Origin: Clostridia bacterium
GTDB lineage: Bacteria; Bacillota; Clostridia; Christensenellales; UBA1242
Assembly: GCA_017553065.1 (NCBI GenBank)
Contig: JAFZND010000109.1
Span: 1-11,457, forward strand
Length of the DNA: 11,457 nucleotides
Reading direction: 5' to 3'
Positions 2 to 11,457 of the stretch are shown in pieces. The position numbers were made by a program, and so were the translations under genes. How positions within the stretch are numbered: the first letter of the stretch is position 1; every line of letters starts with the position of its first letter. The notes under the pieces were generated by a model. That model saw nothing but the letters and a program-made list of their open reading frames with translations. It made no database searches and had not been told where the DNA came from.

Positions 2-676
2 CCACATAGTGAAGAAAATGGATACAAAGTTGCTACAATAATATACAATAGTAAATTTGTGGATGGCGTTGGTGGCGGAATATGTCAAGCAAGCACCACA
101 CTATACAATGCATTATTATTGGCAGGTCAAAAAATTGACGAAGTGCATAAGCACACCTTACCTGTAAAATACGTCCCCCTTGCCCTAGATGCAATGGTTA
201 GTGAATATGTAAGTGATTTAAAGTGGACTAATACTACCGACTATCCAATATATATTCACACTTGGCATGACGAAAGTAGTGTGCACTGCGAAATATATTC
301 ACATACATTACCTGTAACATACAAAACTCGAGCCGAAGTGGTTAAAAAACTTGCATCAAGTGGTGATGTGGTGCAAAAAGATGTGAAAAAAGAATATACT
401 GACAAAGTGCTATTTGAAGGTGAATATTATAGAATAAGCTATCCGCGTGATGGATACGAGGCAATAGCATATTTGCAAACTTATGAAGATAATAAATTGG
501 TGCAAGAAGAAGAAATTCGTCACGAAATATATCAACCACAAAATGGTGTGGTGATAGAAGGTGTCGAAAAACCAAGTGAAGGTATCAATCCTATAAATGA
601 TGTAAGCATAATTTCATCTTCTACGCATAATATGAATAATGAAATTTGCACTGTTCCAACTAGTGTTTGCCCATAA
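2..676 (+). CDS. VanW-family protein, 3' end (5' truncated by the window)
   Basis: This is the C-terminal 224 residues of a VanW-family protein, open in frame from the window edge to a TAA. Residues 20-35 hold the family's most conserved block, VDGVGGGICQASTTLY, and the in-frame residues just before it (NGYKVATIIYNSKF) continue the domain. The GTG at 59 is therefore internal and not the start. Residues 36-80 complete the VanW domain (HTLPVKYVP, then a stretch ending PIYIHTW). From about residue 100 to 190 the chain resembles a degenerate G5-type module (RDGYEA, YEDNKLV, YQPQNGVVIEG). In known proteins G5 modules sit outside the membrane and are linked to cell-wall binding. The last 25 residues are low-complexity and rich in Ser and Asn. 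VanW itself has no established biochemical activity; its name comes from an accessory gene of vanB-type vancomycin clusters, and nothing here suggests a resistance cluster. The signal peptide, if any, lies outside the window. Confidence 0.9.
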   Translation, partial: PHSEENGYKVATIIYNSKFVDGVGGGICQASTTLYNALLLAGQKIDEVHKHTLPVKYVPLALDAMVSEYVSDLKWTNTTDYPIYIHTWHDESSVHCEIYSHTLPVTYKTRAEVVKKLASSGDVVQKDVKKEYTDKVLFEGEYYRISYPRDGYEAIAYLQTYEDNKLVQEEEIRHEIYQPQNGVVIEGVEKPSEGINPINDVSIISSSTHNMNNEICTVPTSVCP

Positions 677-1192: not shown

Positions 1193-1969
1193 ATGAGTAA
1201 AATTGTAGTTATCACAGGTGGGTCTAGCGGTATTGGATTGGATACAACCAAGTTACTAAGAGCGCAAGGGCATATTGTAATTGTGTTAGATAGGTCAAGC
1301 GAGGGCTCAGATTATTGTGTGGATGTCACAAGCGACGAGCAAGTGAAAAATGCATTTAATGAGATTGGCAAAAAATATGGTAAAATAGATGTGTTAATCA
1401 ATAATGCTGGCTATGGATTAAATGGTGTATTGGAACTAATTCCAATGGAACAAGTGATTCGTCAATATGATGTAAATGTTTTTGGCGTGGTGCGTTGTAT
1501 TCAAAACGCGTTGCCATATATGCAAAAAGGTGCGCGCATTATCAATATTGGTAGTTCTATGGCATTTTTGCCTATGCCATATCGTAGTATGTATGCTTCT
1601 AGCAAAAGTGCTGTGGTAGCTATGTCATATAGTTTGCGTAATGAATTGAAGGGTGCTGGCATTGATGTGGTGGTGGTAAATCCTGCAAATATTCGCACTA
1701 ATTTTACTAAAAATAAGCAAGTAGTGTCAGACACAAACGAGCGCTATGGTAATCGTCCTAATAAGGCGCAAGAGCGTTTTGACAATGCAAAGGCAGAAGC
1801 AAAGCGTATTCCATCTATTAAGGTGGCCAAGGCCTTATGCAAGATTGCCAACAAAAAGCGAACAAAACCCATGTACATTCTGGGCGCAAATATGAAATTG
1901 GCACACTTTGCAATGCGCTTTTTATCCACAAAATGTGCTGTGGATATTGAGGGCAAAGTTTGTAATTAG
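1193..1969 (+). CDS. Short-chain dehydrogenase/reductase (SDR family), substrate unknown
   Basis: A complete classical SDR of 258 residues, the usual size of the family. The cofactor-binding glycine motif TGGSSGIG is at residues 8-15. Asp33, at the end of the second strand (VLDRS), suggests NAD(H) rather than NADP(H). NNAG is at 70-73. The catalytic tetrad can be placed as Asn95, Ser121 or Ser122, Tyr134 and Lys138 (YASSK). PANIRTNF at 164-171 matches the region after the active site that closes over the cofactor. The cytosolic enzyme would oxidise or reduce an alcohol, ketone or similar group, but the substrate cannot be read from sequence. AGGAG at 1182-1186, seven bases before ATG, supports the start. 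A weak promoter (TTGCAT at 1112, TACACT at 1135, 17-base spacer) may serve it. The gene stands alone, since the next promoter begins four bases after its stop. A DnaA-box match at 1922-1930 lies in its 3' end and is probably incidental. Confidence 0.92.
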   Translation: MSKIVVITGGSSGIGLDTTKLLRAQGHIVIVLDRSSEGSDYCVDVTSDEQVKNAFNEIGKKYGKIDVLINNAGYGLNGVLELIPMEQVIRQYDVNVFGVVRCIQNALPYMQKGARIINIGSSMAFLPMPYRSMYASSKSAVVAMSYSLRNELKGAGIDVVVVNPANIRTNFTKNKQVVSDTNERYGNRPNKAQERFDNAKAEAKRIPSIKVAKALCKIANKKRTKPMYILGANMKLAHFAMRFLSTKCAVDIEGKVCN

Positions 1970-1972
1970 TGT

Positions 1973-2001
1973 TTGACATAGTAATGTTATAGTTATATAA
2001 T
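1973..2001 (+). promoter_or_regulatory. Consensus sigma-A promoter of the aspS-asnS operon
   Basis: TTGACA (1973-1978) and TATAAT (1996-2001) are exact consensus hexamers separated by the optimal 17 bases. Transcription should begin near 2008, giving an aspS leader of about 155 nt. A maximal promoter suits an operon whose control is exerted after initiation. Confidence 0.9.
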
Positions 2002-2025
2002 AATTGTGTTATATAGGTAATATAT

Positions 2026-2064
2026 ATGAAATTCATCTTAAACGACGACAATAATAATATCTAA
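2026..2064 (+). CDS. Asp/Asn-rich leader peptide MKFILNDDNNNI
   Basis: This 12-codon frame reads M-K-F-I-L-N-D-D-N-N-N-I and stops at TAA. Six consecutive codons, AAC GAC GAC AAT AAT AAT (2041-2058), specify Asn or Asp, the two amino acids attached to tRNA by the enzymes encoded downstream. A short AGG (2015-2017), eight bases before ATG, can serve as ribosome site. The frame begins about 18 nt after the predicted transcription start and ends 45 nt before the terminator stem. The peptide is unlikely to have a function of its own; its translation speed would report charged Asp-tRNA and Asn-tRNA levels, as leader peptides do in the trp, his and pheST operons. The reading rests on codon content, position and the downstream terminator, and translation is not shown. 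Confidence 0.78.
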   Translation: MKFILNDDNNNI

Positions 2065-2109
2065 TTTTATACACGCATGCAGTCGGGTAGTTTTTGAGAT
2101 TGTTTTATC

Positions 2110-2143
2110 AGGGTACTCGAAATAAAAGAGTACCTTTTATTTT
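2110..2143 (+). terminator. Intrinsic terminator in the aspS leader (attenuator)
   Basis: GGTACTC (2112-2118) pairs perfectly with GAGTACC (2128-2134) around the loop GAAATAAAA. A G-U and an A-U pair can extend the stem to 2110 and 2136. The stem is followed by TTTTATTTT (2135-2143). It lies after the leader peptide and before the aspS ribosome site, so it would stop transcription before the operon unless the 5' arm is captured by upstream sequence. Confidence 0.82.
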
Positions 2144-2162: not shown

Positions 2163-3914
2163 ATGACAAGAGAAAATATTTACAAAACTCATAATTGTGG
2201 TGAGTTGCGCATTGGCGACAAGGGTAAAGAGGTTCGTCTTGCTGGCTGGGTAAACAGCATAAGAAAACTTGGCGGATTGAACTTTGTAACACTTCGCGAC
2301 CATTTTGGTATCACTCAGTTGCTTGTACGCAATGAGGAATTATTAAAAGGTGTAGTAAAAGAATGTACAGTTACAGTTAGTGGCGCTGTGTTAGAGCGTG
2401 AAAGCAAAAACCCAAAAATGCCTACTGGCGACATTGAAGTAGAAATTTCAAAATTGCAAATACTTGGCAAATGCCAAAGTGTACTTCCATTTGAAATTAG
2501 CGATGCTCCAAACACCAAAGAAGAGTTGCGTCTAAAATATCGTTATTTGGATTTGAGAAATCCAGAAACACACGAAATGGTTGTAAAACGTGCAAAAATG
2601 TTGCAATTTGTGCGCAATAAAATGACAGATATGGGATTTGTGGAAGTTCAAACACCTATCCTTACATCTTCATCCCCAGAAGGTGCACGCGACTATATTG
2701 TGCCTACAATCAATGCTCCTGGCGAATTTTATGCATTGCCACAAGCACCACAACAATTCAAACAATTACTTATGGTGTCTGGCTATGATAAATATTTCCA
2801 AGTAGCACCATGCTTTAGAAATGAAGCTGCACGTGCTGACCGCACTCCTGGTGAGTTTTATCAAATAGATATGGAAATGAGTTTTGCCACACAAGAAGAT
2901 GTGTTTGCAGTGTGCGAAGAGTTTGCTACAAGTTTGTTTAAAGAATTTACAACAAAAGAAATTAACAGCGCTCCATTTGTGCGCTTGCCATACAAAGAAG
3001 CAATGGCAAAATATTGTTCAGATAAGCCAGACCTTCGCAATCCACTTATTGTGCATGACTTAAGTGAATTATTTGCAAATAGCAGTTTTAATGCGTTTAA
3101 GGGTAAAACAGTAAAATGTATTGCAGCAGCTGCTGGCGAACAATCACGCAAATGGTATGATAGCTTAGGTGATTTTATTGTAAGTTACGAAGGTAAAGGC
3201 CTTGCATGGCTTAAATATAACGATGGTGAATTTACCGGCTCTATTGTAAAATTCCTTAGTGATGATGATAAAAAGTATTTGGTAAAAGAATTTAACCTTA
3301 AAGGTGGCGAAAGCTTATTTATGGTGGCAGATAGCGAAACAATGGCACCAAAACTTGCAAATGTGCTACGTAATGAATTAGGCGAAAGATTAAATCTTAT
3401 TGATAAAAACAAAGTTGCATTCTGTTGGATAGTAGATTTCCCATTCTTTGAGAAAAATGAAGAAACAGGGGCAGTAGATTTTGCACACAATCCATTTAGT
3501 ATGCCACAAGGTGGTATGGAAGCACTTACAACCAAAAATCCATTTGATGTGCTAGCATATCAATTTGACCTAGTAATAAATGGCTACGAATCATTGTCTG
3601 GTGCAGTGCGTAACCACGACCAAGATTTGATGGTAAAAGCATTTGAACTTGCAGGATATAATGCCGATACAGTAAAAGAGAAGTTTGGTGCATTATATAC
3701 AGCATTTACATATGGCGCACCTCCACATGCAGGATGTGCATTTGGATTTGATAGATTGCTAATGCTTGTTACAGACAAAGATATTATTAGAGAAGTTATT
3801 GCATTCCCTATGAACAAAAATGCACGCGACCTTATGATGGGCGCTCCAAGCTTTGTAAGTGAAGAGCAATTGCGCGATGTTGGTTTGCAACTATTACACA
3901 AGGAGAATAAATAA
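2163..3914 (+). CDS. aspS: Aspartyl-tRNA synthetase (bacterial type)
   Basis: The cytosolic class II enzyme charges tRNA(Asp) with aspartate. It has 583 residues, close to the usual bacterial length of about 590. The N-terminal OB-fold anticodon domain covers about residues 1-105 (AGWVNSIRKLGGLNFVTLRD). Class II motif 2 is FRNEAARADRTPGEFYQID (218-236), and motif 3 (GCAFGFDRLLML) lies near 524-535. Between them, about 280-400, is the bacterial GAD insertion. Leu36 in RKLGG occupies the position where, as I recall, discriminating AspRSs carry Leu and non-discriminating ones His; this fits the presence of a separate AsnRS. The frame is open back to 2094, but ATG at 2163 is chosen because AGGAG (2151-2155) precedes it and the terminator lies inside the longer version. 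It is the first structural gene after the attenuator and overlaps asnS by one base. Confidence 0.97.
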   Translation: MTRENIYKTHNCGELRIGDKGKEVRLAGWVNSIRKLGGLNFVTLRDHFGITQLLVRNEELLKGVVKECTVTVSGAVLERESKNPKMPTGDIEVEISKLQILGKCQSVLPFEISDAPNTKEELRLKYRYLDLRNPETHEMVVKRAKMLQFVRNKMTDMGFVEVQTPILTSSSPEGARDYIVPTINAPGEFYALPQAPQQFKQLLMVSGYDKYFQVAPCFRNEAARADRTPGEFYQIDMEMSFATQEDVFAVCEEFATSLFKEFTTKEINSAPFVRLPYKEAMAKYCSDKPDLRNPLIVHDLSELFANSSFNAFKGKTVKCIAAAAGEQSRKWYDSLGDFIVSYEGKGLAWLKYNDGEFTGSIVKFLSDDDKKYLVKEFNLKGGESLFMVADSETMAPKLANVLRNELGERLNLIDKNKVAFCWIVDFPFFEKNEETGAVDFAHNPFSMPQGGMEALTTKNPFDVLAYQFDLVINGYESLSGAVRNHDQDLMVKAFELAGYNADTVKEKFGALYTAFTYGAPPHAGCAFGFDRLLMLVTDKDIIREVIAFPMNKNARDLMMGAPSFVSEEQLRDVGLQLLHKENK

Positions 3915-5305
3915 TGAATACAATTGAAATAAGGCAAATGTACAAAGACCCACAACAATTTAGAAGTAAAGAAATTACAATTTCTGGTTGGGTAAAGTCA
4001 GTGCGTAGCAATGGTGCATTTGGATTTATTGATTTTACTGATGGCACTTATTTTAAAACATTGCAAATAGTGTACACCAAAGAAAAATTAAAAAACTTTG
4101 ATGAAGTGGCAAAGCTTAATGCTGGCTCCACACTTATTGTTACCGGTGACTTTGTGCTTACTCCAGACAATAAGCAACCATTTGAGTTGCATGCAACAGG
4201 TGTAGAGATTTTCTGTGCAACAGATGCAGATTATCCTTTGCAAAAAAAGCGTCATAGTGTAGAGTTTTTGCGTGAAATTGCATATTTGCGCCCACGCACA
4301 AACTTATTCCAAGCAGTATTTCGCATTCGTTCTGTTGCTGCAATGGCTATTCATGAATATTTCCAAACTAACGACTATGTGTATGTGCAAACTCCAATAA
4401 TAACAACTACAGATTGTGAAGGGTCTGACCAAATGTTTAAATTGACCACATTAAACTTTGACAAATTGCCATTAGACAAAGCAGGCAAAGTAGATTTTAG
4501 TGAAGATTTGTTTGGTAAAAAAGCATACATTACAGGTTCAGGCCAACTTCATGGCGAAGCATTTGCACTTGCATTTAGCAAAATTTATACTTTTGGTCCA
4601 ACACTTAGAACAGAAAATAGCAACACCAAAACACACGCAAACGAATTTTGGATGATTGAGCCCGAAATGGCATTTTGCGATTTGGAAGACCTAATGGATG
4701 TAGAAGAAGAAATGCTAATATTCGTAGTAAAATATGTGCTAGATAAATGCATGCCAGAATTGGAATTTTTAAATAGTTTTGTATCCCCAGGATTACTAGA
4801 GAAATTGCAAAAGTTGGTAACATCTAAATTTACTCGTATTGACCACAAAGAAGTGATTGATATTCTAAAAGCAGCAAAAGTAAAATGGGAATTTGAGCCA
4901 GAATATGGTGGAGACATTGCCAAAGAACATGAAAAATACATCACAGAATATTTTGGTGGCCCGGTGTTTATCAAAAACTGGCCAAAAGATATTAAAGCAT
5001 ATTATATGAAGCAAAATCCAGATGGCAAAACCGTGGCAGCTGTGGACCTAGAAGTTCCAGGTGCAGGCGAGCTAATGGGTGGTAGCCAACGCGAAGAGAA
5101 TTACGATAAAATTGTTGCGCGTTGCCATGAACTTGGTGTGGATACCGAAAAAATTGATTGGTATTTGAATCTTCGCAAATTTGGTAGTTGCATTCATTCC
5201 GGCTTTGGTATGGGATTTGAGCGCCTTATTATGTACCTAACTGGCATTGAGAATATTCGCGATAGTATTCCATTCCCACGCACACCAAAAAATTGCGATT
5301 ATTAA
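3914..5305 (+). CDS. asnS: Asparaginyl-tRNA synthetase
   Basis: The cytosolic class II enzyme charges tRNA(Asn) with asparagine. At 463 residues it is the normal bacterial length. The OB-fold anticodon domain covers about 1-105 (ITISGWVKSVRSNGAFGFID). Catalytic-core landmarks are YVQTPIITTTDCEGSDQMF (157-175), the motif 2 region FGPTLRTENSNTKTHANEFW (227-246) followed by MIEPE, and motif 3 GFGMGFERLIMY (430-441), with the C-terminal SIPFPRTPKNCDY typical of AsnRS. Its ATG shares one base with the aspS TAA, and its AGGAG (3901-3905) lies inside aspS, so the two are co-transcribed and probably translationally coupled. Having both enzymes in one transcript explains the mixed Asp/Asn leader peptide. 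Its presence means Asn-tRNA need not come from the Asp-tRNA amidotransferase route, although that route is not excluded elsewhere in the genome. Confidence 0.97.
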   Translation: MNTIEIRQMYKDPQQFRSKEITISGWVKSVRSNGAFGFIDFTDGTYFKTLQIVYTKEKLKNFDEVAKLNAGSTLIVTGDFVLTPDNKQPFELHATGVEIFCATDADYPLQKKRHSVEFLREIAYLRPRTNLFQAVFRIRSVAAMAIHEYFQTNDYVYVQTPIITTTDCEGSDQMFKLTTLNFDKLPLDKAGKVDFSEDLFGKKAYITGSGQLHGEAFALAFSKIYTFGPTLRTENSNTKTHANEFWMIEPEMAFCDLEDLMDVEEEMLIFVVKYVLDKCMPELEFLNSFVSPGLLEKLQKLVTSKFTRIDHKEVIDILKAAKVKWEFEPEYGGDIAKEHEKYITEYFGGPVFIKNWPKDIKAYYMKQNPDGKTVAAVDLEVPGAGELMGGSQREENYDKIVARCHELGVDTEKIDWYLNLRKFGSCIHSGFGMGFERLIMYLTGIENIRDSIPFPRTPKNCDY

Positions 5306-5475: not shown

Positions 5476-5507
5476 AAAAAAATAGAGCGATTGTGCTCTA
5501 TTTTTTT
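5476..5507 (-). terminator. Bidirectional terminator between converging operons
   Basis: A perfect 13-bp inverted repeat, AAAAAAATAGAGC (5476-5488) and GCTCTATTTTTTT (5495-5507), has a 6-base loop and A/T runs on both sides, so it can end transcription from either strand. For the minus-strand dnaI gene the last codons AAA AAA TAG are themselves the 5' arm, so the stop codon is built into the hairpin. On the plus strand it backs up the terminator at 5407-5436. Confidence 0.88.
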
Positions 5508-6430
5508 ATTGTACGCAAATCTTTGCCATCCATTTTGATAAGCAAGCAATTATTTTGGTCGGCAATGCGACTGAAAATTCTTTCATCGTAAACATCCATA
5601 ATTTGTTGCATATCAAGGTTGGTGGTGATTATTGTGTTTTTATTTAATCTTGTGCGCTCAGACAATATTTGATATAGATATTCACATGTGACATTTTTCA
5701 AAACATTTTCTGTGCCAAGGTCATCTACAAACAATATGTCGCAATCAAAATATCTTTGCAATATATCGCCTTTTTCATCCATTGGGCTAGTGTGATATTT
5801 TAGCATGTCATTATTTAGTCCCACAGCAGTAGTGTATATTACATATTTATTACAATTTACTACGCATTCATTTAACATACATTCTATTAAGTGAGTTTTA
5901 CCAACTCCAACTTTGCCCGTAATGGTTACCACATGTTTTGTGGTGTTTGTGTTGGTATACTTTTGCAATGTGTCATATATTTTGCGAATCTCTTTTTCTT
6001 GTTCGCCAAATATTTTGAAATACACATCACTAAATGCTGGTAATTTATCTTTGTTTATGCCACTTTCTTTTAGTAATATTTCGCTCATCTCATGTTTTAG
6101 GCATTCACAATCTTTGCCATCTACTATGCCTTTGTCATGGCAAATAGGGCAATTATATTTTACTTTTAAACTATTTCTATCTATGCCATATTTATTGAGT
6201 AGCGCATACAATTCTTTTTTAGTGTCATTTAAAGATTTTTCTTTTTGTGTTGTGCTGCTGCCTGCATATTTTAGTTTTGCAATATCAAATTGCAAACTTT
6301 TGCATTTTTTGTATAGCTTTTCCACATCCTTGTGGGATAGGGCATTGTCTAGCATAAATTCTTGCAAACGCACTTGTGTTTCATGCTTTTTGGCAATGCT
6401 TGCTAGGGCTTGGTTTCTAATGTTACTCAT
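5498..6430 (-). CDS. dnaI: DnaI/DnaC-like helicase-loader ATPase
   Basis: A 310-residue AAA+ protein of the DnaC/DnaI family, the same length class as Bacillus DnaI. In that family the protein binds the replicative helicase and loads it on DNA at origins and restart sites. Residues 1-90 are helical and coiled-coil-like. C94, C97, C108 and C110 (CPIC, CEC) form a probable zinc site like that in the DnaI N-terminal domain. Walker A is GKVGVGKT (172-179), Walker B is ILFVDD (232-237), sensor 1 is TTN (269-271), and basic residues in DERIFSRI (282-289) lie where the arginine finger is expected. Its ATG overlaps the stop of the upstream DnaD-like gene as ATGA, so expression is coupled. This order matches the dnaB-dnaI pairing of Bacillus subtilis. 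An IstB-type transposition helper is the look-alike, but the zinc motif, the partner gene and the lack of a transposase argue against it. Confidence 0.9.
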   Translation of the reverse strand: MSNIRNQALASIAKKHETQVRLQEFMLDNALSHKDVEKLYKKCKSLQFDIAKLKYAGSSTTQKEKSLNDTKKELYALLNKYGIDRNSLKVKYNCPICHDKGIVDGKDCECLKHEMSEILLKESGINKDKLPAFSDVYFKIFGEQEKEIRKIYDTLQKYTNTNTTKHVVTITGKVGVGKTHLIECMLNECVVNCNKYVIYTTAVGLNNDMLKYHTSPMDEKGDILQRYFDCDILFVDDLGTENVLKNVTCEYLYQILSERTRLNKNTIITTNLDMQQIMDVYDERIFSRIADQNNCLLIKMDGKDLRTIKK

Positions 6431-7872
6431 AATTCCACCTCGTCCAAGTTGCTAAACAAACTATCAAGTTCGTCTTTGCTATATTCTCTTGCTTTTGGCT
6501 TTTTTGCATTTGCCACAGGTGCTGTAACGTTAGGCAATTCTACCTTTTTTGCATCTTCCACAGTTTTCACATTGTGTGTGTGATATGTGGCAAGAACTCT
6601 GTTTAGATATTGTAGTGGCAAGTATTGGCCAACACATTTTGTGCAGGCATAGTCAATTACATCTTTTGACATATTCCAATCATATACCCAAGTTTTAAGT
6701 AGCATTCTGTCGTTTGCATTTACGCCACGCACAAGACCAAGGGCAGATAAAACGCTAGCAATTTGCTCATCATTTTTTGTGAGTTCTTTCAAATGTGATT
6801 GAATTGAATCTAATGTAATTAGTCCACTTTTAAATAGGTTATTTACAACGCCATTCATACCTTGCAAAGTGCGAATAGTGGAAGTAAAGCAATAATTTGC
6901 AATTTTATTTAGAGTTTCAGTATCAAAACCAAGTGCAAACCAATTGGTGATATATGTATCTACAACTGTATCTAATCGTTCGTATCTTACACCCAAGTTT
7001 TTACATACACTTTTTGCTGTATCAAACAACATTTGTTCGCTAGCAAGGTAATCGTCAATTTCTTTTGTGCTATTTAGTTTTAGTGCATAACATTTATCGA
7101 TGTATGCATTTAATTTGTTCCATGCACCAGGCACCTTGCCAATGTGTTTTGCAATGTGCATAATTACATCTATGCTAATGCCAAGGTCGCGTGTCCATGT
7201 GATAAAATTGAAATATTCTTCATCAGTGGCACTGCGTTTGATGCCAATAGCATTAAGTACAAGTTTTACATCGCTACCGCTTTTTTCTAAGTCGCTAATG
7301 CGTGCGCGTGCTTCATCAAGTGTGTGTACACCACTGTATGCCCAGTTTTTGGCAGTGGCAACAATGTAATTTACTGATACGCTAGTTGTTTTTTTCTTGA
7401 TGCAATAGTTTGCAATAAGCAACATTGCATCTTCATCTATGTGCAAGCTTTCCATGGTGTAGTATAGCTCATTGTATTCGTGTGTGCTAATCATGCGAGA
7501 GCCATATATGTCCTGCATACTCATGTTAAAGCTTTTGTATTTGTCTTTGTTATATTTTTTCAAATGCATTGAACCATTTGAAATAGGTAAATATTTAATT
7601 TCAAAATGTTCTACATTTAGCACTTGCACAAGACCTAATTCTTGCCAATAGTAAAAACTACTGATTATATCTTCTGGCGATAGTCCTAGTGCATGCGAAA
7701 AAGAGTCTAGCGTGTTGTCAGATGCTTGAGGATTGTTACATTTGTATAGTCCCCATAGATACACTCTTATTGCATCTGGATTTGCGCTAGGCACAAAACT
7801 TTCGATAAAACTATTCTCTAGTTTTACAAAGTTTTCTTTTATTGATTCTGTAGAAAAAGTGCAAAAACTCAT
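6427..7872 (-). CDS. DnaD/DnaB-like primosome protein with four apparent C-terminal-type repeats
   Basis: This 481-residue protein is of the DnaD/DnaB replication-initiation group, which in Bacillota remodels origin DNA and recruits the helicase-DnaI complex. Residues 1-98 look like the DnaD N-terminal winged-helix domain (YLWGLYKC, LGLSPEDI, YYWQELGLVQV). About 118-445 appears to be four divergent repeats of the DnaB_2/DnaD C-terminal type. Each has a two-helix start, a central aromatic region, and a closing Thr-acidic helix: TLDEARARI (184-192), STKEIDDYL (268-276), TLDSIQSHL (353-361) and TVEDAKKV (437-444). Recurrent LNAIG, CKNLG and LSALG mark the starts of repeats 2-4. The C-terminus is a basic linker (KKPKAR) and an acidic tail (LDSLFSNLDEVEL). 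DnaD normally has one such domain and DnaB two, so four is unusual. The start has a modest AAAGG site (7882-7886) ten bases upstream. The closest identity, DnaD or DnaB, is unsettled. Confidence 0.85.
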   Translation of the reverse strand: MSFCTFSTESIKENFVKLENSFIESFVPSANPDAIRVYLWGLYKCNNPQASDNTLDSFSHALGLSPEDIISSFYYWQELGLVQVLNVEHFEIKYLPISNGSMHLKKYNKDKYKSFNMSMQDIYGSRMISTHEYNELYYTMESLHIDEDAMLLIANYCIKKKTTSVSVNYIVATAKNWAYSGVHTLDEARARISDLEKSGSDVKLVLNAIGIKRSATDEEYFNFITWTRDLGISIDVIMHIAKHIGKVPGAWNKLNAYIDKCYALKLNSTKEIDDYLASEQMLFDTAKSVCKNLGVRYERLDTVVDTYITNWFALGFDTETLNKIANYCFTSTIRTLQGMNGVVNNLFKSGLITLDSIQSHLKELTKNDEQIASVLSALGLVRGVNANDRMLLKTWVYDWNMSKDVIDYACTKCVGQYLPLQYLNRVLATYHTHNVKTVEDAKKVELPNVTAPVANAKKPKAREYSKDELDSLFSNLDEVEL

Positions 7873-8046: not shown

Positions 8047-9240
8047 ATGCGAATTTTACATACATCTGATTGGCATTTGGGCAAGAAAACTGACGACCTA
8101 GATAGGTTGGATGAGCAACGCCAAGTGCTAGAACAAATAGTAAATATTGCAAAAGAGCGCGAAGTGGATATGGTTCTTATATCTGGCGATATATATGACC
8201 AATTCATTCCTTCTGCAGATGCTGAGAATTTGTTTTACAAAACAATTAGCGAGCTTGCTAGAGGTGGCGAATGTGCAGTTGTGGCAATTGCGGGTAATCA
8301 CGATGAACCAAAGCGTATGAGCAATGCGCAAGTTTTTGCAAGCAGATTTGGTATTTATTTAATTGGATATTGGGATGAGATTACTAATTCTAATTTAAGC
8401 AAAGAACACAATATTTTTGCCACAAGTGTTGGCAAAGGTTATATAAAATTTGAAACAAAGTCAGGGGAAAAATGTACCGTGGCTACTCTTCCTTGGCCTA
8501 GTTTTTATCGTTACAGAGAGCAAAAAACAGAAGATAAAACTCTTATGGATAAATATGCCGAGTGGCTAAAAGAAGCTTGCAAAGAATTTAAAAAGGGCGA
8601 AAACAATATTCTCTGCACACATCTTAGCACTGCAGGTGTTCGTTTTGCTGAATTTGATGACGAAGTATCAGAGTATAGCCCATTTGCAACACTTACTCGC
8701 GATGTGCTTACAGGTGTTAAAAATATGACATACGGAGCACTTGGACATATTCACTATGCAACTAAGGTTACAGATAACACATATTATTGCGGTAGTTTGA
8801 TAAATACACACTTTACTAATGAAAAAGCAATAGAAAAGAGTGTGAATGTTGTGGAAGTAAAAGATGGCAAATTAGTGTCAGTAGATGTTGTGCCACTCAC
8901 ATGCAAAAAGATGCGTGTAATAAACACAAAAGATTTTGCACAAATTGAAGCATTCTGCAAGCAGTACCCACAAGATTATGTAAAAGCAGTTGTGGAAAAT
9001 GTGAAATTTGTAGATTTTGAAGATGTCAAAAAACTAAGAGCGGCAAATCCAAACTTGGTAACACTTTCCGTGATTACAGATGAAGCAAAAGAGCTTGCTC
9101 AAGTGGAAATCAAAAAAGATTTAACCACACAAGAAATATTTGATAAATATGTTCTAAACAAAACTGGTAAATTACCTGAAAAGGAAGTAAAAGAATTGTT
9201 CCTAGAACTTATGGGGGAGGCAGTGTATGAGGCCGATTAA
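8047..9240 (+). CDS. sbcD: Exonuclease SbcCD, nuclease subunit SbcD
   Basis: The Mre11-like metal-dependent nuclease subunit of SbcCD cuts DNA hairpins and protein-blocked or broken ends together with the SbcC ATPase. At 397 residues it is typical in length. Phosphoesterase motifs are in order: Asp8 and His10 in TSDWHLG, Asp48 in SGDIYD, Asn84-His85-Asp86 in AGNHDE, His192 in CTHLSTAG, and His234 and His236 in LGHIHYA. These are the two-metal ligands and catalytic histidine of the family. The C-terminal 120 residues form the capping and SbcC-binding part. GGAGA (8036-8040), seven bases before ATG, supports the start. GGGGGAGG inside its 3' end is the sbcC ribosome site, and the two genes overlap by 14 bases, so they are one transcription unit. 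Confidence 0.96.
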   Translation: MRILHTSDWHLGKKTDDLDRLDEQRQVLEQIVNIAKEREVDMVLISGDIYDQFIPSADAENLFYKTISELARGGECAVVAIAGNHDEPKRMSNAQVFASRFGIYLIGYWDEITNSNLSKEHNIFATSVGKGYIKFETKSGEKCTVATLPWPSFYRYREQKTEDKTLMDKYAEWLKEACKEFKKGENNILCTHLSTAGVRFAEFDDEVSEYSPFATLTRDVLTGVKNMTYGALGHIHYATKVTDNTYYCGSLINTHFTNEKAIEKSVNVVEVKDGKLVSVDVVPLTCKKMRVINTKDFAQIEAFCKQYPQDYVKAVVENVKFVDFEDVKKLRAANPNLVTLSVITDEAKELAQVEIKKDLTTQEIFDKYVLNKTGKLPEKEVKELFLELMGEAVYEAD

Positions 9241-11457
9241 CCTAAAAGTACAAGGTATCAATAGTTATGTTACCGAACAAGAAATAAAATTTGATAAGCT
9301 TGCCGAAAGTAAATTGTTTGGTATTTTTGGTGAGACAGGTAGTGGTAAAACTACCATATTGGATGCAATTGTGCTTGCACTATATGGAACTAGTGAACGT
9401 GAAACAATTGCCAATATGATAAATGTGAATAGCAAAAATGCCCATGTATATTTTGATTTTGTGGAAAATGTAAATGGCGAAGATGTGCTATATAGAGTAA
9501 AGCGTGATTACAAGTTGCGCGATAGTGGCGTCAAACAAGATGCGTTGCTTACCGAAGTTGTTACAGGCAAAGTGCTTGCCGATATGACAGAAAGCGTAAA
9601 TGATGAAGTGCTAAAAATTATTGGTGTAGGCAAAAAGGAATTCCTAAAATGTATTGCATTGCCACAAGGTGAATTTGATAGATTCCTAGTGGATACACCT
9701 GCAAATAGGAAGAAAACTATAGCAAAATTATTCAATTTAGAGCATTTTGGCGTAGTTTTGCAAGAAAAAATTAAAAATCGCAAAGATATTACCACATTAA
9801 AATTGGAAAATGTGAAAGATAAACTTGCACTATATGAAGGCGTAACACAAGAAGCGTTATATTCATCACATATCACATTAAAGACAAAACAAAAACGATT
9901 AAAAGAAATAGAAAAAGAAATTGCACTTACCGAAAAGAAGTACAATCAACTTTGTGCCGATTATGATTTGAGCTTAAAACTTGTAGATGCCATGGCACAA
10001 CTCACTGTGCGCGAAAGTGAAGAGAAAGAAGTGAATGCACTTCGTAGACAAGTTGAGCACACAGAAAAATTTGGTAACCTAATTGCATTCGTTACTCGCA
10101 AAAATGCATACCTTGGTGAAATTGCAGAATTAGAGCCAAAACTAAAAGCAGATAAAAAATTGTTGCAAAATACAAATAGTGAACTTTTAGGACTAGTGGA
10201 TGAGTTGACCAAATTACAAGAAGAAAAGCAGAAAATGGATGCTGAATATGCAGCCGCAAGTGTGGAATTTGCAAAATATACTCAAACTAAGAATGCAATT
10301 GAAGAGTTGCGTGCAGAATATACAAAAATTGCTAGCGAAGCAAAGGAACTTGAAAGTAGCGTAAAAGAACTCAGTGAAAAATTAAGTCAATTGCAAGCTA
10401 GCCATGACGAACAAGTAAAATCTAGATTAAGCATAAAAGAATTAGTAGAAAATAACAAAAAATTGCTTGAAAAAATAAGAGAAAGCAAAACTGTGGAAAC
10501 AGTAGATGGCTTTGTGGATTATTTGACGTACCTAAAGTCACTTATAGACCCAAATGCATTGCAAGAAATATATCAATTTGATGTATTTGAGCAAATAAAT
10601 GCAATGTTACTTTCTATGCAAAAATATGAACTTGATATACGCAAAAAAGTTGCTGGGATTAAGAGTGAATACAATGCATTGCTAAAGTATGGTAAAGATT
10701 TGAATACACTACAATCACAAATTGAGAAAAAGAATGAAGAATTAAATGCAACACTTGCCAAGATTGATACTTCAATAGAGAAATCTGGCAGTTTGATTGT
10801 TACAGTTCAAACGCAAATTTTGGAACGCAATAATCAAATTGAGCAAAAGAAACATGAGTTGCAAACATTAAAAGTAAAACATGCAGCACGCGAAGGCGAG
10901 CTAAAAGAATTTGAAGATGTAACTCGCGTGGAAAAACTAAAAGTCCAAGTGGACAAATTGCAAGCAAGTTTAGATGAGTTGTCTTCTAAAATTGGCTCAC
11001 TTACTGAGGCAAAGAATAATTTGGTTGTGTCAGTAGAAGTAGCTAGTGTAAATTTGGATAACTTAAATGCAAACCTCAAAGAAGTAAATGCAACAATTCG
11101 CACACTCAAAATTGATGAAAATGAGCATGTGGACGAAAAATATAATTTGTCACCAGAAGAATTGGCCGTAGCAAAAGAACGCGTTGCCGAATTTGATAAG
11201 GCAGTGGGTGTATTGGAGAACACAATTAAAGAAACAAAATCTAAGATTGTGAATAAAAATGTTACAAAAGTAGAGGTAGAAACATTTGAAAATTCGCTAA
11301 CATCTCTTCGTGAAGAACAAAATAGAATTAGTGTGGAAATTGGTGTGCTTACTGAAAAATTAGAAAAATTAAAATCTGATTTGGAAGTAGTAAAACAATT
11401 AACTAAAGAAAAAGATGATACACAAAAAGCATACGATACAGTGATGAAATTATCAGC
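9227..11457 (+). CDS. sbcC: Exonuclease SbcCD, ATPase subunit SbcC (3' end outside the window)
   Basis: The first 743 residues of the Rad50-like ATPase partner of SbcD, open to the window end. The ATG at 9227 lies inside sbcD, seven bases after GGGGGAGG (9213-9220). The N-terminal ATPase lobe includes GETGSGKT (Walker A, 35-42) and the LPQGEF block (145-150), whose Gln147 is the Q-loop residue. From about residue 175 the chain is a long coiled coil rich in Glu, Lys and Leu (KLQEEKQKMD, LEKLKSDLE), broken near 422-465 by a less charged stretch (VDGFVDYLTYLKSLIDP). The signature motif and Walker B would follow in the missing C-terminal lobe. The only cysteines I find are at residues 142 and 243, so no CxxC zinc hook is visible. 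A generic SMC protein is ruled out by the LPQGEF block and the sbcD partner. Confidence 0.94.
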   Translation, partial: MRPINLKVQGINSYVTEQEIKFDKLAESKLFGIFGETGSGKTTILDAIVLALYGTSERETIANMINVNSKNAHVYFDFVENVNGEDVLYRVKRDYKLRDSGVKQDALLTEVVTGKVLADMTESVNDEVLKIIGVGKKEFLKCIALPQGEFDRFLVDTPANRKKTIAKLFNLEHFGVVLQEKIKNRKDITTLKLENVKDKLALYEGVTQEALYSSHITLKTKQKRLKEIEKEIALTEKKYNQLCADYDLSLKLVDAMAQLTVRESEEKEVNALRRQVEHTEKFGNLIAFVTRKNAYLGEIAELEPKLKADKKLLQNTNSELLGLVDELTKLQEEKQKMDAEYAAASVEFAKYTQTKNAIEELRAEYTKIASEAKELESSVKELSEKLSQLQASHDEQVKSRLSIKELVENNKKLLEKIRESKTVETVDGFVDYLTYLKSLIDPNALQEIYQFDVFEQINAMLLSMQKYELDIRKKVAGIKSEYNALLKYGKDLNTLQSQIEKKNEELNATLAKIDTSIEKSGSLIVTVQTQILERNNQIEQKKHELQTLKVKHAAREGELKEFEDVTRVEKLKVQVDKLQASLDELSSKIGSLTEAKNNLVVSVEVASVNLDNLNANLKEVNATIRTLKIDENEHVDEKYNLSPEELAVAKERVAEFDKAVGVLENTIKETKSKIVNKNVTKVEVETFENSLTSLREEQNRISVEIGVLTEKLEKLKSDLEVVKQLTKEKDDTQKAYDTVMKLS

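Follow-up and report, generated by a model that had tools for sequence, protein, structure and literature searches.

Single leaders that carry codons for more than one amino acid are familiar from the thr and ilv systems. In the Bacillota, Rli60 of Listeria monocytogenes is a mutation-tested, ribosome-mediated attenuator of ilv-leu, with a 13-amino acid leader rich in the codons of several amino acids and an antiterminator of −10.3 kcal/mol versus −17.1 kcal/mol for the terminator (PMC5864092); BmrB of B. subtilis is another tested regulatory leader peptide (PMC4191407). In the passage cited, a 2005 study held no Firmicutes synthetase to be under classical attenuation, and named pheST, and Streptomyces trpS and leuS, as targets of classical leaders (PMC1262725). 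His leaders were predicted in 2010 for two hisS paralogs of bacilli, in a paper that describes leader peptides as replacing T-boxes (PMC2965389), and in 2022 for three Firmicutes lineages, one with C. difficile relatives (Peptostreptococcaceae) (PMC9413887). Among T-box systems, asnS is often second in the operon (PMC2494555), and a two-codon T-box of Clostridium acetobutylicum senses the tRNAs for Asn and Glu (Saad 2013, via PMC4052509). A Shewanella study gives aspS, in the portion cited, merely as a 'tRNA synthetase leader' (PMC2659441). Among the matches listed in the open-licence literature there was no Asp/Asn leader peptide, nor any leader peptide for aspS-asnS.

The window analyzed here is the whole 11,457-nucleotide stretch, which lies in contig C89 of the genome bin G000 (0.70 Mb, 63% complete). 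We consider it probable that positions 1973–2143 constitute a ribosome-mediated transcription attenuator, whose 12-codon frame would jointly sense charged tRNA-Asp and tRNA-Asn and so control aspS-asnS. Like Rli60, this leader is in the Bacillota, is short, has codons of several amino acids, and has a predicted antiterminator less stable than its predicted terminator; Rli60, however, concerns branched-chain amino acids and a biosynthesis operon, whereas the leader described here is predicted from sequence, for Asp and Asn and a two-synthetase operon. The Bacillota His leaders are likewise predicted peptides with a run of cognate codons before his genes or a synthetase (PMC2965389, PMC9413887), although they sense one amino acid, whereas this leader would sense two, for two synthetases in one operon. 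The predicted stalled-ribosome logic, the synthetase targets and, in the case of thr and ilv, the use of more than one amino acid are shared with the classical leaders of Proteobacteria and Actinobacteria, albeit in other phyla and with other amino acids. The C. acetobutylicum two-codon T-box also has one leader for two tRNAs, but it binds tRNA directly and serves another operon, whereas here translation of a peptide is predicted. The T-boxes found before aspS-asnS in related Clostridia (see below) share the operon, the presumed signal (tRNA charging), and transcription termination, but bind tRNA directly, and their core is absent here. What would be new is the Asp/Asn leader on aspS-asnS; leader-peptide attenuators of the Bacillota (His and Rli60) and the two-codon T-box were known already. 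The view of the first-pass annotation that such control has hardly been described in the group, if at all, is too wide, because the Bacillota His leaders (PMC2965389, PMC9413887) and the Listeria leader (PMC5864092) are published.

Reading from the oxidoreductase gene towards aspS, a consensus promoter comes first, then the 12-codon frame MKFILNDDNNNI and, beyond a spacer, a hairpin followed by a U-rich tail (Table 1). The two synthetases carry the NCBIfam product names aspartate--tRNA ligase (aspS) and asparagine--tRNA ligase (asnS), and the asnS start codon overlaps the aspS stop. These results bear out the first-pass annotation in its account of a perfect promoter, a 12-codon frame with six consecutive Asn/Asp codons, a terminator ahead of aspS, and an operon for the Asp and Asn synthetases. 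A scan of 1900–2200 yielded three promoter-like sites against a shuffle mean of 2.4, the other two matching at 9/12 positions. The codons of the frame are ATG AAA TTC ATC TTA AAC GAC GAC AAT AAT AAT ATC TAA.

Table 1. Features of the aspS-asnS leader and its surroundings, in window coordinates.
Feature	Position	Strand	Remarks
VanW-like frame with G5 domain	2–676		Truncated by contig start
SDR-type oxidoreductase gene	1193–1969		Upstream neighbor of the leader stretch
Sigma-70-type promoter match, TTGACA-17-TATAAT	1973–2001	+	12/12 consensus positions; TTGACA at 1973, spacer 17 nt, TATAAT ends at 2001
AGGT, possible weak Shine-Dalgarno	2015–2018	+	7 nt 5' of ATG; identical in G007
Leader frame MKFILNDDNNNI and stop	2026–2064	+	12 codons; 38/39 bases same in G007
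Segment 1 (protector)	2026–2047	+	Predicted from folds to pair with segment 2
Proposed regulatory codons AAC GAC GAC AAT AAT AAT	2041–2058	+	Codons 6–11, N D D N N N
Segment 2	2082–2108	+	UCGGGUA 2083–2089, predicted antiterminator 5' arm
Predicted intrinsic terminator	2110–2143	+	Stem 2112–2118/2128–2134, U tract 2135–2143; kept in G007
Segment 3, UACUCGA	2114–2120	+	Predicted antiterminator 3' arm, overlaps terminator 5' arm; −9.3 kcal/mol for 2083–2125
aspS	2163–3914	+	NF001750 and TIGR00459 above cut-off
asnS	3914–5305	+	NF003037 and TIGR00457 above cut-off

A TTG at 2094 could open a 606-amino acid frame with an AspRS N-terminal extension, which we rejected because the frame crosses the hairpin and a second genome, G007, has a 2-nt insertion there. 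Elsewhere in the window, the minus strand of 5498–7872 carries two adjoining genes, one like those of DnaC/IstB-type ATPases (all NCBIfam scores below cut-off) and one with a DnaD domain, which are perhaps a helicase-loader pair. Positions 8047–11455 hold an SbcD-like nuclease gene and then an AAA_23 (SMC-like) gene, perhaps sbcC, that runs off the contig.

The codon run comprises precisely the amino acids of the two downstream synthetases. Searched for in every frame and on both strands, six successive RAY codons turn up twice in the 0.70 Mb of G000, one of these places being the leader, and once in G007 (0.8 Mb), at the same leader site; this corresponds to about 1e-6 per base and strand with the leaders themselves included. 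The run alone is not peculiar to these two genomes, because each of the other 11 genus genomes has 1–23 matching positions (overlaps counted); the rarity lies in the location of the run. A sample of 396 genomes from the order, one that does not include G007, gave matches to the pattern ATGAA...RAYx6...TAA, which is not frame-bound, in 22 genomes (25 rows, 24 loci). By tblastn of about 3 kb at each of the 24 loci, aspS or asnS was found in the window's locus only, and neither gene in the ∼3-kb surroundings of the other 24 rows, which come from 21 other genomes.

The second species with the leader, G007, is represented among the related aspS loci by L062, a locus of yak-rumen bin RGIG10085 that lies within a G007 contig and has an AspRS sharing 98% identity across 523 residues; asnS also follows aspS in G007, on another contig that starts inside aspS. 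Positions 2013–2110 differ at one of 98 bases and the Asp/Asn run is untouched, the sole change in the frame being T2032A, which makes codon 3 Ile instead of Phe. All 46 bases of 2065–2110 are identical, segments 2 and 3 are unchanged, and the promoter has a single change, in its spacer. The oxidoreductase gene is 87.4% identical between the two species and aspS (2163–3700) 91.5%, with 116 of its 130 changes at third positions. The two changes in the 158 bases of 1966–2123 have a binomial probability of 1.6e-7 at the oxidoreductase divergence of 12.6%, and of 1e-4 at the aspS divergence of 8.5%. Changes reappear in the terminator loop (2124, 2126), its 3' arm (A2132G, which turns U-A into U-G and keeps the pairing), and the spacer before aspS (a 2-base insertion). 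The leader is known from two species, so covariation lends it no support at the sequence level.

This conservation would also suit a leader RNA that senses a ligand, AspRS, AsnRS, or another protein directly, the frame being incidental, inasmuch as the non-frame bases are as conserved as the frame and two species cannot separate coding from RNA constraint. We nevertheless regard direct sensing as unlikely. Conservation of segments 2 and 3 is expected under the attenuator too, and a direct sensor leaves as a coincidence the placing of a rare Asp/Asn run before just those synthetases. Moreover, none of the 4227 Rfam families matched the window at gathering score, the six weak matches in 1970–2200 being all far below it (best E 0.11), and a search of the window found no tRNA gene.

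The predicted terminator has arms GGUACUC and GAGUACC and a loop of 9 nt, followed by UUUUAUUUU, with an energy of −9.4 kcal/mol for 2110–2134 and −12.2 kcal/mol for 2104–2143. An automated terminator scan found none, its loop range of 3–8 excluding the 9-nt loop. The leader as a whole (2010–2165) folds only moderately better than its shuffles (z −1.82; 6 of 200 shuffles equal).

Segments 1, 2, and 3 together with the terminator have, in the folding models, the arrangement of a classical attenuator. Folded freely, segment 1 pairs with segment 2 (protector, 1:2); once segment 1 is covered, UCGGGUA pairs with UACUCGA (antiterminator, 2:3), and this predicted pairing is mutually exclusive with both 1:2 and the terminator (3:4). 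With the 3' end at 2122 and the A site at codons 6–11, 1:2 is lost and 2:3 near-complete at 8.8 expected pairs, under all four assumed footprints and in both species. With the same 3' end but no ribosome, the expected pairs of 2:3 still number 5.4 for the window and 6.1 for G007, and the unstalled leader RNA is, in these models, a mixture of folds; a ribosome on the stop codon lets the protector form under only two of the four footprints. The G007 change T2032A, in segment 1, reduces free 1:2 pairing from 8.4 to 6.6. On RNA extending to 2143 the terminator prevails even with a stalled ribosome or with segment 1 covered, and readthrough would therefore have to be kinetic. Folded alone, 2083–2143 of the window is most stable as the antiterminator (−13.4), and a slightly longer piece from G007 as the terminator (−13.6). 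The antiterminator and terminator energies (−9.3 and −12.2 kcal/mol) stand in a ratio no worse than that of the Listeria attenuator.

As a control, the spacer 2065–2110 was shuffled 1000 times. An equally good antiterminator arose in 10.0% of shuffles and an equally good free protector in 64.9% (37.1% at the stop codon); both pairings were equally good in 51 of the 1000 (5.1%; 2.7% with the stop-codon state), and the on/off difference was equally large in 28.1%. Given these frequencies, a switch by folding is plausible, not proven, in the models.

The attenuator would work as follows. Scarcity of charged tRNA-Asp or tRNA-Asn would stall the ribosome at codons 6–11, where it would cover segment 1 and leave segment 2 to pair with segment 3; this would occupy the 5' arm of the terminator, and transcription would continue into aspS and asnS. 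With both charged tRNAs ample, the ribosome would reach the stop codon and depart, 1:2 would pair, the terminator would form, and transcription would end. Shortage of either amino acid would thus suffice, making the leader an OR gate, with kinetics deciding between antiterminator and terminator.

The folds also suit another device, in which the hairpin either terminates partially and constitutively or senses translation in general, termination being blocked by a ribosome on the leader irrespective of the codon: segment 2 is freed with the A site at codons 3–12, so that ribosomes at the non-Asp/Asn codons 3–5 or 12 release it likewise. That the rare Asp/Asn run is kept in both species is left unexplained by such a device, which we think improbable. 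The codon run is explained by the attenuator better than by any rival.

Related aspS-asnS operons often have a T-box core. Among the best 80 of 311 related aspS loci (named species genomes), 22 have asnS behind aspS (tblastn; gaps of at most 289 bases). By pattern, aspS is preceded by a T-box core in 15 of these 22 loci, versus 2 of the 58 other loci, a number of which are cut off by the end of their contig; L074, which belongs to the 22, has no upstream sequence. Rfam scans covered 20 of the 80 loci, namely the 17 with a T-box core and L062, L073, and L133. The T-box reached gathering score upstream of aspS in seven of the 17 core loci (L069, L080, L085, L086, L091, L094, and L097) and fell below it in ten. 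A specifier-region pattern matched eight of the 17 (L069, L080, L081, L085, L086, L087, L091, and L092), and the triplets that we take to be their specifiers are GAC in six and AAC in two, three of them overlapping as GACAAC. With such an overlap, a single T-box might be able to read either Asp or Asn, or the two together. In L133, a T-box that passes the gathering score was located at 4933–5159, some 1 kb past asnS on its downstream side and ahead of another gene.

A diverged or minimal T-box that reads uncharged tRNA directly and involves no ribosome could thus be imagined in the window too, the more so as G000 has three T-box matches elsewhere in its genome, one of them above cut-off. At this leader, however, we rejected a T-box: the covariance model (RF00230) has no match in the window or, for this leader, in the genome-wide search, the GGTGGNACC antiterminator core is absent, and the distance from promoter to aspS is about 160 nt versus a model of 219 positions. 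We therefore give such a T-box very little credence; the first-pass annotation had seen none here, and the Rfam and core-pattern searches agree. Least credible of all is a random short frame next to an unrelated terminator, even though switch-like folding appears in 5.1% of shuffles and AAT runs arise easily in AT-rich DNA, since the run is found at just two places in 0.70 Mb and 97 of the 98 bases of 2013–2110 are kept between species whose neighboring gene is 87.4% identical.

The distribution of the leader is narrow. Ten of the 13 genomes in the genus sample have a well-matching aspS (at least 50% identity), while G005, G008, and G010 gave nothing better than weak matches of the kind expected from related class-II synthetases. 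The leader is ahead of aspS in two of these ten (G000 and G007) and absent from the other eight. When 202 bases of leader DNA were compared with 309 family genomes, G000 and G007 alone had full-length matches among the matches listed; the next best covered 34 bases at the promoter (E 4e-7), and others were weaker and short. That search scored two candidates per genome and would miss a diverged leader. The expectation of conservation across related Clostridia was thus not borne out. A 24-base leader core had no matches in a viral collection. Among the best 80 of 311 related aspS loci, L062 (G007) alone has the six-codon run, L074 and L120 having no upstream sequence; L102 and L132, with four RAY codons in succession, were rejected as leaders for want of an in-frame start codon. 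The region upstream of asnS was inspected at 16 loci, 14 of which have that gene; in these 14, no stretch of at least four successive RAY codons was seen in the 230 bases before asnS, and no T-box core in the 400 bases before it.

At 2930–2958 in the sister aspS-asnS operon L073, aspS is preceded by a promoter-like site and by a weak hairpin of 8 bp that has a T run (−4.6 kcal/mol), but by no Asp/Asn frame. The first-pass annotation had named a terminator kept without the Asp/Asn run as evidence against its proposal, and L073 is such a case in part, its hairpin being weak. This hairpin may represent a further attenuator, or one that has decayed. We favor the ribosome-mediated attenuator that the annotation proposed because it agrees with the anatomy, the lack of any T-box match, and the leader's conservation in G007; L073 and the presence of the leader in two species only count against it.

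An AspRS tree was built from 50 of 90 rows and drawn with a midpoint root; the 40 rows omitted were L062, which duplicates L003, matches under about 480 residues in length, and rows with less than 54% identity (except L011, which was kept). The two rows that carry the leader form a sister pair (100/100) and adjoin L073 (97/92). They lie in a starred clade of ten rows without a T-box core, and its sister clade of seven rows has three T-box rows. Because of this placement, loss of the T-box and gain of the leader are likely, the order of these events being inferred; judging from the distribution, the leader probably replaced a T-box lost in this lineage. The fuller proposition, that a single OR-gate leader peptide for two amino acids replaced a T-box in a Clostridia lineage that uses T-boxes elsewhere, as a recent swap in which a second input was gained, we hold to have an even chance of being right.

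T-boxes and leader peptides ask the same question, whether a tRNA is charged, by different routes. A peptide leader for both amino acids where relatives often have a T-box would make the swap testable among close relatives and, if the attenuator is real, Asp/Asn and aspS-asnS join the short list of leader-peptide attenuators in the Bacillota.
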